From the NCBI RefSeq assembly GCF_007097485.1, contig NZ_VKDE01000032.1, positions 1-54,039 of the forward strand: a DNA stretch of 54,039 bases, in the 5' to 3' direction. Source of the stretch: Carboxylicivirga sp. M1479. Lineage in GTDB: Bacteria; Bacteroidota; Bacteroidia; Bacteroidales; Marinilabiliaceae. Each line of letters begins with the position of its first letter. Within the stretch, counting starts at the first letter, position 1. This document shows positions 46-54,039 of this stretch, piece by piece. Below the pieces are notes generated by a model. It made no database searches, had not been told where the DNA came from, and saw only the letters and a program-made list of their open reading frames with translations. A program made the position numbers and the translations under genes.

Positions 46-217
46 GCCTTCTTTTATTCACTAAGTTCCGAATTACCTCCAATAATCATCCCCCTGTGTG
101 CCAAATTTACTTGCCATGGGTGTTTCATGTGTTTAAATTTTGTTTTTATTGCCACATGGAACTCGCCAAAATCAATCATACTCTTGTGTGAGAACTTATT
201 CTCATGGCTCGTTTCAT
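1..217 (-). mobile_element. 5' end of an IS110-like insertion sequence (left copy)
   Basis: Read on the minus strand, this stretch holds stem-loop unit A (217-156), a 27-nt linker, stem-loop unit B* (128-65), a spacer ending in AAGAAGG, and the recombinase start at 45. The same order, with clear base identity, is found at 53793-54039 on the plus strand. The two copies are therefore inverted repeats at the two ends of the window. Identity between the copies starts at ATGAAACGAG, which I take as the element boundary. Upstream noncoding sequence of this size is where IS110 elements encode their bridge RNA. Confidence 0.6.
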
Positions 218-429
218 ATGATTATAATTTGCTTTCATTTGCCATATGGAACTCTCAAGTAAATTTTATCATCCCCCTGTGTGAAAATTTGGATAATCAA
301 ATTTACATGGTCGTTTCATGTGTATAAATTTTGTTTTTATTGCCACTACTTGTCCCGTTTTATCGGGATGGAACTTGCCAAATTCAATCATGCTACTGCG
401 TGAGAAGCTATTCTCATGGCTCGTTTCAT
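218..429 (-). repeat. Extra A-B stem-loop module in tandem with the IS 5' end
   Basis: On the minus strand, unit A' (429-368) and unit B (319-246) precede the A-B* pair of the IS, with a 28-nt linker (245-218) between B and the next A. A' and A share ATGAAACGAGCC, a GAGAA/TTCTC hairpin and a closing GTTCCAT. B has a long stem (GTAAATTT with AAATTTAC, continuing through ATTATCC with GGATGAT) around a loop containing CACACAGG. The linker after A' carries a CCCG...CGGG hairpin also seen in the right copy. The module A'-B matches the solo copy at 39920-40110. Confidence 0.75.
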
Positions 430-6096: not shown

Positions 6097-9000
6097 ATGA
6101 AAAATATATACGCTTTAGTAGGTTTATTGGTATTGTTGAGTTTTAGTAATGTAGGGTGGGGGCAAAGTATTATAACTAACGCAGCGACAAACATCACTGC
6201 TAATGGTGCTACATTAAATGCGACGGCATCAGGTTTGGATGTTGGGAAAACTTATTATGTAGAGTATTATTACGGACCAGCTGGCGATCTTTTACAGAAT
6301 AATATAAAAAGTGACGATGTTAGTGGTGTAACAACTGCAAATTTCCCTTTGTTAACTGATGTTGAACTATCCAGTAATACAGAATACTTTTTTACGGCTT
6401 ATTTATTCGAAGATACTGATACCCCTCCTTTTTACAATTATATAGGTAGTGGTTCTGAAATGTCTTTTACTACAGAAGTTGTTTTAACAGGCATTAGTAC
6501 GAATGCAGCAACAAACATCACGATTAATGGAGCTACCTTAAATGCCACAGCATCAGGTTTGGATGTAGGTAAAAGCTATTATGTGGAGTACTATTATGGT
6601 CCCGCTGGTGATCTTTTGCAGAATTACATTAAAAGTAACAATATTAGTGGTGTAACAACAGCTGATTTCCCTTTGATAACAGATGCTGAACTATTCAGTA
6701 ATACAGAATACTTTTTTACGGCTTATTTATATGAAGCTATTGCTACTCCTCCTTTTGGTAATTATATAGGTGGTGGTGGTGAACTGTCTTTTATAACTGC
6801 ATCTCCTTTATCAGTGACATTATATAATCCACTACAAGATGATTCAAATGTTACTATAAATCCCTTGTTGCAATTGACGTTCAATCAAGATGTAGAATTT
6901 ATTGATCCATTGGCTGAGTATAAAATATTATTAAGACAAGGAGGTGCCACCATTGATGAATTTATTGTTTCGCCTGGTTTTAAGGATGGTAATTTAGTTT
7001 TTGATGGCAATTTAATGGTGAGTGACCGTTTAAATATAACACCATATTCAACCTTAGCTGTTGGTACAGAATATCATGTTATTATTCCTAGTGGCCTGGT
7101 TAAATCATTTGTTAGTGAAGAAACTTTTACTGGCATCACATCCTCTACAGGATGGCGTTTTACAACGGTCGCCAATCCTGTTTGGGCAAATGGATATCCA
7201 TTAACGCGTAATGTGTCTCCAATATCAGTTGAATTTGTTGGGCAAGTTGATAAAATAGGCACATGTTATTATGTTGTAACTGATAATAATACCGAGCCAA
7301 CAATTGCTCAAATAAAAGCTGGTCAAGATGCAACAGGCAGCCCAGCAAGTTATGCAAGCGGAAGTGTTGCTATTGAAACAGCTAGTGCCGAATTTAATGA
7401 TGCGATAGATGTATCAGATCATGAATTATACGATGCCGAGACTACTTATTATGTATACGCTGTAACAACTGATGATGTAAATTCGCTGGATTCTGAAATT
7501 GGAATAACATCTTTTACAACTCTCGAAAGAATTGCTCCTATTACCTCTTTTGATCCTATTGATGGAGCCAACGACGTTTCGATATTAGCTAAGGTTGTCA
7601 TTACTTTTGATGAACCCGTTCGCATGACTAATGGTACAATTATAGATGATACAAATGTCGCAAGCCTAATTTTATTTAATTTAAATCCAGCTAATCCAGT
7701 TGACTTTACGGCAAGTATTGATGATGAAAAACAAGTTATTACTATTACGCCAAATGTGCCACTGAACGAAAACTCAGGTTACGATATTACCATCTTAGCT
7801 GTTGAAGATTATTTTGACAATGAGCAATTGAGTTCGTCAAAAGCTTCATTTAATACCACCAATGTTGTGGTCTGGAATGGAAATCAGTCGTCGGTATGGA
7901 CAGTCAATCAAAATTGGGATGGTAATTTTAACCCTGGTAGTAGTGTTCATATTCCCTATGCTGATGGAGGAGTGCCGATTACGAATATGCCAATAATATC
8001 AACAGATATTACTGTTGGGCATATAAGTATTGAATCGGGTGCATCCTTAGAGATTGAAAATACTGGTAGCTTGATTATCAACGAGACCTTAACAATGGGA
8101 TCTTCAACGACAGGAGCAGGTAATGCTTCGATTATAGATAATGGGTCAACTTCAATAAATGTTGATCCTTCCAAGGTGTCCATACAACAGGCGATTATGT
8201 CTAGTACGCGTGGATATCATCTTTCTTCACCAGTTGTTGGTGCTACGAAATCTAACATGGGTGTTGATAATGCTATCTATGTTTTTGATAACCCAACTGA
8301 TAGCTGGCCTAAATTAGGTGACAACGATGTGCTTTCTATAGGGCGAGGTTATGGTTTATATACAAGTGTTGATATTGAATTTAAAGGTGCACTTAACCAG
8401 AGCTCCAGTTATTCTGTTCCTTTAACCCGAACTGACGGAGAGGGATATGGATGGAATCTTGTCGGGAATCCATATACGGCAGCTATAGATTGGAATCAAA
8501 TTGCTTTAGGGCATAAAGTAAATATCAATAATGCTTATTGGGTGTTTTTAAATGATCCTTCTAATTATGGATTGTATGCAACATATAGTAGTGGAGGTGG
8601 TGGAACGAATGGTCTAGATAATCTAATTCCAACACATCAGGCGTATTACGTAAAGGTAAATCTAGGAGAAACAATAGGTTCATTAACAATGCCAAAGTCG
8701 GCATTGTCTCCAAATAATAAAAGCATACTAAAATCTGCACCTGTTGAATTTACCAGGGTAAAGTTAGCTGGCGTTAATGGTGATTATATCGATGAAACAA
8801 TTCTTTCATTTACTGAAGATGCTGAAGATTACATCGATATGTATGATGCTGAAAAAAGATTCACAAATTATAAAAATTATCTAGAGTTATTCTTTTATGA
8901 AGAATCTAATTCTTTTGCTATCGATTGCAAAAAATCAATTTATGACGGATTAATTGTTCCAATTGGTTATAAGGTTTCTAATACAGGTGCTTATTCCATT

Positions 9001-39919: not shown

Positions 39920-40110
39920 ATGAAACGAGCCATGAGAACAGTTTCTCACATAGGAGTATGATTGATTTTGGCGAGTTCCATGTGGCAATAAACAGCAAAA
40001 TATAAACACATGAAACGACCATGTAGATTTAGCATCCAAATTTTCACACAGAAGGATGATAAAATTTATTTGGGAGTTCCATATGGACTTTGAAAATATA
40101 TTATAATCAT
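39920..40110 (+). repeat. Solo A-B stem-loop module between two PUL lipoprotein genes
   Basis: 191 nt: unit A (39920-39981), 28-nt linker, unit B (40010-40082), 28-nt linker (40083-40110). It matches the module at 218-429 and unit A of both IS copies, but no recombinase gene follows. The last linker matches 21 of 28 bases of the left array, ending TTATAATCAT. Where the left array then continues ATGAAACGAG, here the lipoprotein start codon ATGAAAAAA follows, so ATGAAA stands at both ends of the module (39920 and 40111). Arms pair well: AAC-GA-GCC with GGC-GA-GTT in A (tandem G-A mismatches), and GTAGATTT with AAATTTAT in B. Confidence 0.8.
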
Positions 40111-41286
40111 ATGAAAAAAATATTATATACTATCGCAATTGCTTTGTTAACATTAACAATTGCTTGCGAGGATGAAAGTAATCCGAAAGATTGGAGTGAG
40201 AATCTTATAGATCTAGATGTTACTTTTACAGATGTTTCCGATCAAATAGGAATTGCCAATAGTTACGAGTTTAAGAATAATACACCTGACTTAAGCTATA
40301 TTGAATGGGATTTTGGTAACGGAACCACGGTGCGTCAGGAGTCTGGTGTATTTATTTACACGGTGGATGGGACATATACGCCAAAAGTAACAGCTGTATA
40401 TGGCAATAGGGTAAATGTAGAAACCTTTACCGAAATAAACGTTTCTGCCGATGAATTGATTATTGCTACGGATGTATCCAAGCCTGGAGTTGCAGGTGAG
40501 GAGAATCTTATACAACTGCAAATAAATGCCGACGCATCAACTGTTTTTAGTAGTGCTCGTTGGGATTTTGGTGACGGAAACTGGATTAGCACAGCTACAA
40601 CTGACACAACTGTACGTTATTTAGATGCAGGTGAGTTTAAAGTGAAGTTTGAAGCCTCAGTACAAGATGCTTTACTAAGTGCAGAAGCAATTGTTACAAT
40701 CCAAAGTGGTGATATAAAGAAGGAAAGTGTTGTTTTTAATAACTTTGATGATGCGCCTGCATATACTGGAGCATGGGGACCAGCCAATGGTGATACCAAG
40801 TTATTAAATGAATACAATCCAGATACAAATCCTTATCAATTTGATGGAAGTAATGTACTGTTGATGGGTAAAACAGGTGGTTGGTGGACCGAGGGGAATT
40901 ATGGTATTACGGAAGGAACCCTAAATTTCTCAAGCGAATACACTGAAGTAGGCCTGCGTGTATACTTAGAGGGCAATACTGTTAATATTGGAGGAACAGA
41001 CTACAATTTTAATATGCCAGAAAATGAGCGTTTGCTAAAAATTGGTCTTTCAACGCTTAACGACTATGATGGTCGTGTTGAGGTAGAGCACACCATAACA
41101 GGAACAGATTCATGGATTGATATATCATTTGATTTTTCAGATAAGGACTTCTCGCATGGAAAAATAGATCCTGATAACATCAGTTATCTATGGGTTATGT
41201 TTAGCCATGGTAAAGGTACTAGTGGTGTAATATATGTGGATGATATCGTATTAAAGAAAGCATATCCAGGTATTAAAAAACAATAG
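40111..41286 (+). CDS. PKD-domain surface glycan-binding lipoprotein (second paralogue)
   Basis: 391 residues from the ATG at 40111 (MKKILYTIAIALLTLTIAC lipobox); a TTG seven codons upstream is unlikely as start because it lies inside the stem-loop module. Two PKD-like domains (IEWDFGNGTTVRQESG and ARWDFGDGNWISTATT) precede a CBM-like C-terminal half shared with the previous gene (FNNFDDAPAYTGAWG, LLMGKTGGWWTE, YLWVMFSHG, IYVDDIVLK). The extra PKD domain makes it longer than its paralogue. The two probably arose by duplication. The stem-loop module makes up its immediate 5' leader. Confidence 0.87.
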   Translation: MKKILYTIAIALLTLTIACEDESNPKDWSENLIDLDVTFTDVSDQIGIANSYEFKNNTPDLSYIEWDFGNGTTVRQESGVFIYTVDGTYTPKVTAVYGNRVNVETFTEINVSADELIIATDVSKPGVAGEENLIQLQINADASTVFSSARWDFGDGNWISTATTDTTVRYLDAGEFKVKFEASVQDALLSAEAIVTIQSGDIKKESVVFNNFDDAPAYTGAWGPANGDTKLLNEYNPDTNPYQFDGSNVLLMGKTGGWWTEGNYGITEGTLNFSSEYTEVGLRVYLEGNTVNIGGTDYNFNMPENERLLKIGLSTLNDYDGRVEVEHTITGTDSWIDISFDFSDKDFSHGKIDPDNISYLWVMFSHGKGTSGVIYVDDIVLKKAYPGIKKQ

Positions 41287-53792: not shown

Positions 53793-54039
53793 ATGAAACG
53801 AGTCATGAGAATAGCTTCTCGCCCAGAAGCATGATTAATTTTGGTGAGTTCCATCCCGATAAATCGGGACAAGTAGTGGCAATAAAAAACAAAATATATA
53901 CATATGAAACATCCATGGCAAGTAAATTTGACACACAGGGGGATGATTATTGGTGGGAATTCGGAACTTAGTGAATAAAAGAAGGCATGGCTAGGACAAG
54001 TAACAACATAGAGTTTGAGCAGGTCATTGAACGAGGCTG
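53793..54039 (+). mobile_element. 5' end of an IS110-like insertion sequence (right copy)
   Basis: Unit A (53793-53854), a linker holding a CCCGAT/ATCGGG hairpin (53855-53868), unit B* (53904 to about 53968), then the spacer TTAGTGAATAAAAGAAGGC and the recombinase start at 53987. It is the inverted counterpart of 1-217. Only one A-B* pair is present here, while the left copy has an added A'-B module. The element runs off the right edge. Confidence 0.65.
53987..54039 (+). CDS. IS110-like transposase/recombinase, N-terminus only (cut by window edge)
   Basis: Seventeen codons plus two bases: MARTSNNIEFEQVIERG, with the next codon beginning TG. It differs from the left copy at positions 3 and 5 (R and S instead of T and N), so the two are separate copies, not one sequence counted twice. 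AAGAAGG precedes the ATG. The family call rests on the short N-terminus and on the long structured leader. Confidence 0.5.
   Translation, partial: MARTSNNIEFEQVIERG

Follow-up and report, generated by a model that had tools for sequence, protein, structure and literature searches.

A recombinase-free two-unit module at a lipoprotein start codon in Carboxylicivirga sp. M1479 is probably a non-autonomous mobile repeat inserted at ATGAAA

Introduction

What is a 191-nt module without a recombinase gene doing directly in front of the start codon of a lipoprotein gene, when units of the same kind precede the recombinase gene of an insertion sequence (IS) at both ends of the same contig? The question arises in Carboxylicivirga sp. 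M1479, on contig NZ_VKDE01000032.1, whose 54,039 nt were analysed as a whole and are called the window here; the window is one entire contig of a 5.44-Mb draft genome. An initial annotation of this DNA considered the module to be related to the leader of the IS, and proposed that it is either a miniature inverted-repeat transposable element (MITE) of a bridge-RNA-type IS or an RNA domesticated in a 5' untranslated region. Correia-type and other bacterial MITEs are short non-autonomous repeats near genes, with inverted termini and TA-type targets. Here we argue that the module consists of two tandem copies of a non-autonomous mobile repeat of ~90-102 nt, inserted at ATGAAA, which is usually the start hexamer of a gene read in the sense direction, and that an internal guide takes part in this insertion; taken as a whole, guide mechanism included, we consider this reading probable, if by no means secure.

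Results

The module is a precise insertion of two units

Positions 39920-40110 of the plus strand hold an A unit of 90 nt (ATGAAACGAGCC...AAACAC, 39920-40009), aligned with 30 other A units, followed directly by a B unit of 101 nt (ATGAAACGACCATG...TAATCAT, 40010-40110), aligned with 37 other B units; model R1 matches the latter from 40010 to 40109 with 89.3 bits. The ATGAAA of the lipoprotein gene begins at the next base, 40111. The module is thus real and free of a recombinase, and the boundaries first assigned to it are exact to the base. The gene itself (40111-41286, plus strand) encodes a PKD-domain lipoprotein according to Pfam, and its start codon abuts the B unit.

Orthologues of this gene were found in five congeners and in one genome of another genus of the family, with 75-80% identity, and the remaining 23 of the 29 relatives searched gave no match. 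All six orthologues lack the unit, and a short 5' region leads directly into ATGAA(A/G/T). Because all six orthologous loci are empty, the module is a precise insertion with ATGAAA at its boundary, as had been suspected. At this locus the exact unit, ATGAAAC...CAN', was inserted, and the uniform boundaries suggest the same for other loci. Such an insertion would keep the old 5' region upstream and leave an ATG at the gene start. Since the left copies of the hexamer are mostly ATGAAAC and the right copies vary, insertion before the target hexamer is tentatively favoured. A second comparison is offered by gnd, whose ATG is preceded in the M1479 genome by the right end of the IS and an A unit; among 19 of the 23 other matches, genome G012 has a B unit and the 18 others have neither.

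The units form a large family

In line with the initial annotation, and not by chance, the module is repeated throughout the M1479 genome, with 48 BLAST matches at E <= 0.01 and at least 150 matches at the same threshold to a sequence-only model built from 38 B units, a few of which are halves of one interrupted unit. Unit matches at E <= 1e-4 were present in 22 of the 40 genomes searched, M1479 included, and all 13 congeners were positive, with 2 to 78 units per genome when up to 100 candidates were scored in each. At least 110 stretches of named genomes match a gapped pattern of unit head and guide. The 80 pattern matches listed come mostly from Marinilabiliaceae, Prolixibacteraceae and Marinifilaceae, together the order Marinilabiliales, or from unclassified Bacteroidota; three of these records are labelled Flavobacteriales, Chitinophaga and Urechidicola. 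Among the loci compared, the nearest named DNA is that of Carboxylicivirga sediminis JR1, with 78% identity over 1,212 nt.

An internal guide covaries with the unit end

The units contain an internal sequence, GTTCCATNTG, that is complementary both to the right end of the unit together with its flank (CAN'|ATGAAA) and to the left end (ATGAAAC), with a near-invariant mismatch. In the window, the guide of the A unit (GTTCCATGTG, 39975-39984, plus strand) is complementary, with one mismatch, to CAC|ATGAAAC at 40007-40016, and that of the B unit (GTTCCATATG, 40076-40085, plus strand), again with one mismatch, to CAT|ATGAAA at 40108-40116; both assignments draw on covariation. The covariation was measured in 212 units, which had been selected by GTTNCAN and the head motif without regard to pairing; relatedness among the copies inflates the counts. 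GTTCCAT, which occurs in 199 of the 212 units and also matches ATGAAAC, the seven bases with which the unit itself opens, is followed by three bases that pair with the three bases preceding the next ATG. At the first of these positions, N and N' pair in 192 of the 212 units (2000 shuffles gave a mean of 68 and a maximum of 91), and when the partner is slid by one base, only 5 of 212 pair. Positions 2 and 3 pair in 198 and 194 units, barely more than in shuffles (191 and 176), because there is little variation at these positions. Positions 4 and 5 show no pairing, and a five-base helix is present in 10 units. The helix runs on through ATG(A)AA, and the near-fixed A-C mismatch becomes G-T on the other strand. 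Three guide/end classes, CATATG/TCAT|ATG, CATGTG/CAC|ATG and CATCTG/CAG|ATG, recur separately in the M1479 genome and in the named genomes. What was found is thus a guide complementary to target-side sequence, with covariation, as in IS200/IS605-type elements.

The RNAalifold values were -6.9 for the A units and -0.5 for the B units. Since folding beyond the guide helix is no better than that of shuffled sequences, we claim no further structure, and the case rests on the covariation. The units were also considered as leader peptides; A units do hold a short frame, but single-base indels among B units shift it, and this idea was rejected.

Units usually abut start codons

The context of units was counted for 104 of the 150 model matches in the M1479 genome (108 were taken up and 4 had no context). 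The next feature is another unit or the IS in 27 cases and a second, distinct element, called element X here, in 6, leaving 71 units that terminate their array. In 64 of these, an open reading frame (ORF) of at least 60 codons begins at the abutting ATG, 5 have a shorter frame and 2 have no ATG; one of the short cases, at C39:3058, actually precedes another unit, and leaving the counts unchanged works against a start reading. Of the 118 units taken from named genomes, 82 lie before such an ORF, 8 before a further unit and 23 before a short frame, 2 have no ATG behind them, and element X, a cut sequence and a contig end account for one each; among the short frames, L168, L170 and L229 were scored at a stray upstream ATG and have real frames of 197, 83 and 509 codons, which again works against a start reading. 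An ORF start therefore abuts 64 of 71 units in M1479 and 82 of 107 in the named genomes (the classes ORF, short and no ATG). As background, 13 of the 52 non-coding ATGAA sites in the window and 263 of the 1008 in the named loci are starts, the frames being called mechanically and those that run off locus ends inflating the non-coding class of the named loci, which works for a start reading. The excess is significant in both sets (Fisher's exact test, p = 6e-14 for M1479 and 1e-24 for the named genomes).

AAA is the second codon at 48 of 64 unit-abutted starts in M1479 and at 77 of 82 in the named genomes, compared with 36 of 121 and 168 of 579 background starts, and ATGAAA was seen by eye at the junction in 18 of the 23 short-frame cases of the named genomes. 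This enrichment and these short-frame cases suggest that the target is the hexamer as such, with genuine starts apparently favoured over and above it.

Ten downstream proteins were scanned, and eight scored above NCBIfam cut-offs (cysS, argH, dxs, cysQ, folK, gnd, pxpA and a DJ-1 protein); the remaining two were a response regulator under its cut-off and a protein without a match. The functions of the ten genes are unrelated, and by a crude rule 36 of the 64 downstream proteins count as secreted. Several of the genes are housekeeping genes, so the unit end would have to permit translation initiation. In an A-B-B array at C39:51804-52096 (locus L002, minus strand), the A-type head that comes next forms the N-terminal part of a frame of 289 codons (MKRAMKIAVTSASGNLG..., which by eye resembles an epimerase), where a unit head may have turned into coding sequence.

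The position of the units invites the alternative that they are riboregulators, mobile or domesticated, in which the guide, present in the mRNA as GUUCCAUNUG, would mask the start codon downstream (CAN'AUGAAA), with AUGAAAC at the 5' end of the unit as a competing partner, giving an on/off leader on many genes. The covarying helix does include the start codon of the gene, units at starts are usually sense-oriented, the guide has two alternative partners, and the A unit, folded as single-stranded DNA, gives a 6-bp hairpin that includes the ATG. Nevertheless, the A-C mismatch opposite the start codon is near-fixed (199/212 GTTCCAT) even though one change would pair it, the downstream genes are heterogeneous, the orthologues of the window gene manage without a unit, and no Rfam match reached the gathering threshold in the window, where three sub-threshold matches had E-values of 1 to 4.6. 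We therefore regard a riboregulator as an unlikely explanation. The mRNA switch and the mobile unit may both be true and use the same pairs, because a mobile unit with a start-codon hairpin at its end will probably influence the gene that hosts it.

The ends of IS110 and element X lie at unit junctions

Both ends of the window carry the left end of an IS110-family element. One lies at 1-128 on the minus strand, with the start of its recombinase gene (ATG at 45-43), and one at 53904-54039 on the plus strand (recombinase ATG at 53987), each cut by the contig end. The family was assigned from other copies, since those on contig C65 exceed the cut-offs for DEDD_Tnp_IS110 and Transposase_20 and the window copies are too short for this. 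An A-B module had been reported before both copies; units do precede both, but an A-B-A array (129-429, minus strand, defined by sequence and model matches) stands before the left IS, and a single A unit with a CCCGATAAATCGGGA-type insert (53793-53903, plus strand) before the right one. This insert of ~21 nt, a hairpin with CCCGATAAATCGGGA between GTTCCAT and the tail, occurs in some A units (window 320-429 and 53793-53903).

Leaving out fragments on C76, 10 of 10 IS110 left ends follow a unit and 4 of 4 right ends precede one. The sole copy with both ends on one contig, on C65 and internally duplicated, has the order A, B, IS, B, gene. The copy at C65:352.5-354.1 kb (L038), with its internal duplication and ambiguous bases, looks mis-assembled or broken. 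The 3' non-coding region of the IS, 187 nt long and a place where a bridge RNA might lie, contains ACATGAAAC and folds with -31.8 kcal/mol (z -1.35).

The IS and the units are related in sequence, and that part of the original proposal stands. The left end of the IS (79 nt) matches the unit head with 19.2 bits in model R1 (E 7e-6 in 6 kb) and 10.4 bits in R2 (E 0.002), which means that the IS either took over the head of a unit or is distantly related to it by descent. This homology, the ATGAAAC junction common to both, and an A-rich IS right tail (..AACAAAATTATAAACAC) that resembles unit tails by eye would be expected if the units were MITEs that arose from an IS110-type element by internal deletion and were moved by the recombinase and bridge RNA of that element, both of them now lost from most genomes. 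However, the right-end match is weak (R2 1.6 bits, E 1.1), and the IS ends are seen at unit junctions, as expected of a target. The distribution also disagrees: all 13 congeners, with their 2-78 units, carry units, whereas this recombinase was found in none of them at E <= 1e-20, and PF01548 gave no match at E <= 0.001 in nine, including those with 78, 36, 30, 24 and 19 units (one match each in G005, G008, G010 and G011). Moreover, G012 has its unit at gnd in a genome without this IS. Descent from IS110 therefore appears improbable to us, the description of the units as a leader or MITE of the IS is not borne out, and the units preceding the recombinase are better read as the target that the IS entered.

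Element X, known here from its ends alone, behaves similarly. All 16 left ends directly follow the end of a unit (one is strongly degraded and one belongs to a third type), and all 14 right ends directly precede ATGAAAC, which by eye belongs to 8 units, 5 gene starts and 1 short frame. Several of its ends lie near contig ends (right ends on C13, C98, C50, C60, C67 and others; left ends on C41, C51 and others). With 16/16 and 14/14 ends at unit/ATGAAAC junctions, element X, or another unread element, might be what mobilises the units. Its ends, by eye, have neither unit head nor unit tail, and a position exactly before ATGAAAC in 14 of 14 cases is that of an invader with its own target, which makes this role very improbable. 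We interpret both element X and the IS110 element as having arrived later, with the unit junction as their own target.

Insertion of IS elements at specific sites of repetitive extragenic palindromic (REP) repeats is known (PMC1525189, PMC11208160), and the IS110/IS1111 elements concerned (IS621; ISPpu9, ISPpu10) likewise enter a fixed place of an abundant intergenic repeat. Here the repeat differs in being ~100 nt long, often tandem, sense-oriented and at start codons, and in that the IS left end is itself homologous to it.

Two features of the assembly lie apart from the units. Window positions 6169-6792 hold two direct repeats of 300 nt, 84% identical, within an ORF of 1107 amino acids, and contigs C12-C36 of G000 include 22 that are exactly 281 bases long, an assembly oddity.

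Discussion

If the module is a mobile unit with a guide, the question becomes how it moves. Along the bottom strand, the target TTTCAT is followed across the unit boundary by a linker, the guide CANATGGAAC, a hairpin and GTTTCAT, and the guide could let a transposase acting in trans recognise both unit ends and the target. The two complementarities and the covariation would then be accounted for by a single guide that serves the ends as well as the target. Because the bottom-strand order resembles the logic of guide and cleavage site in IS200/IS605 and REP elements, a single-strand mechanism of the HUH type is the one that we favour by analogy, as a doubtful but possible step.

PATE-type single-strand elements share this likeness with IS200/IS605 and REP elements. 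In IS200/IS605 and REP elements (PMC6006769), a hairpin has on its 5' side a short guide that base-pairs with the cleavage or target sequence, and non-autonomous copies are numerous. The units differ from such single-strand elements in several ways: their guide has ~10 nt where those elements use a tetranucleotide, both ends would share one guide, the ATGAAA hexamer is the target, and among the loci scanned there was no Y1 gene associated with units.

Several observations weigh against this proposal. Its mobility is deduced from comparing sequences, not from direct observation, and the two ATGAAA copies per insertion fit a position before as well as after the target hexamer. Sliding the partner by two bases still leaves 77 of 212 units paired, which we ascribe to base composition. 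Single-stranded DNA folds of the window units are near those of shuffled sequences (z between -1.84 and 0.33), and wobble pairs in the 212 units show no strand preference and give no signal for the strand of action. No start of a frame of at least 60 codons was detected at seven of the 71 terminal units in M1479 and at 25 of the 107 in the named genomes. Examination of the Y1 loci and of the distribution of the IS110 recombinase identified no enzyme for unit movement. Genes of the Y1/HUH type (PF01797) show no association with units: they occur in 20 of the 22 genomes that carry units and in 15 of the 18 that do not, and G013, with its 36 units, gave no Y1 match. The 49 Y1 loci scanned in relatives, roughly half of the 112 matches there, gave three loose unit matches, of which one was judged real and lies inside the gene. 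A REP-associated tyrosine transposase (RAYT) gene on C52 was rejected as a source of the units, as its flanks hold different repeats of its own.

The last results also bear on the alternative that the units are REP/RAYT repeats of the classical kind and that their cognate transposase merely fell outside the sample. High copy number, a mostly intergenic position and imperfect palindromic ends with a fixed mismatch agree with this idea, and IS elements insert into REPs too (PMC1525189). However, no unit-flanked Y1 gene was present in the 49 loci of relatives or in five loci of M1479, and the units are tied to ATGAAA and exceed the 21-65 nt quoted for REPs in a passage of PMC6006769. The motif GT[AG]G at the hairpin foot was seen by eye only in the A consensus, as GTGG, and is absent from both strands of the B consensus. 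Taken together, a REP/RAYT origin seems to us about as improbable as descent from IS110.

Other Y1 genes were inspected as well. The RAYT-like gene at C52:15064 (L100) lies between GC-rich palindromes, probably its own REPs. Three IS200-like Y1 genes lie within 46 kb on C63 (L097, L098 and L099; C63:30525-76100), with local repeats of their own around each, and were likewise rejected as a unit source. In G014:C8 (L468, ~880-970 and ~3600), an A unit lies antisense within a RAYT-type Y1 gene, in two tandem gene copies.

No published account of the repeat was found among the displayed listings of the literature searched. The nearest published pattern that we met, in the portion of PMC4679880 concerned, is the TAACTGA direct repeat of Beggiatoaceae, which also lies mostly immediately upstream of start codons in forward orientation; these are tandem heptamers of unrelated sequence, and that portion held no hairpin, guide or empty-site evidence. 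Short non-autonomous mobile repeats are already known, and the units are set apart from them, Correia-type MITEs included, by a hexamer target at gene starts and a covarying internal guide.

A bolder version of the mobile-repeat reading, which we put forward as speculative and slightly less likely than the single-strand step alone, is that the unit is a start-codon-seeking element. Its anti-start guide, complementary to CANATGAAAC, would direct a ~100-nt repeat exactly to translation starts by means of an undescribed trans-acting enzyme, and a ready-made 5' leader that sequesters the start codon would in this way come to lie on a hundred or more genes in each genome, among them housekeeping genes, throughout a bacterial order.

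The units also carry a caution, in that repeats found next to an IS110 recombinase may be what the element targets and not its own RNA. Ready material for experiments comes from the empty sites, from subfamilies that differ in their guide letters and from the IS elements that invade units in nature. If the start-seeking version is true, translation initiation would be rewired by repeats that insert exactly at starts and whose guide-target pairing can be read and tested.
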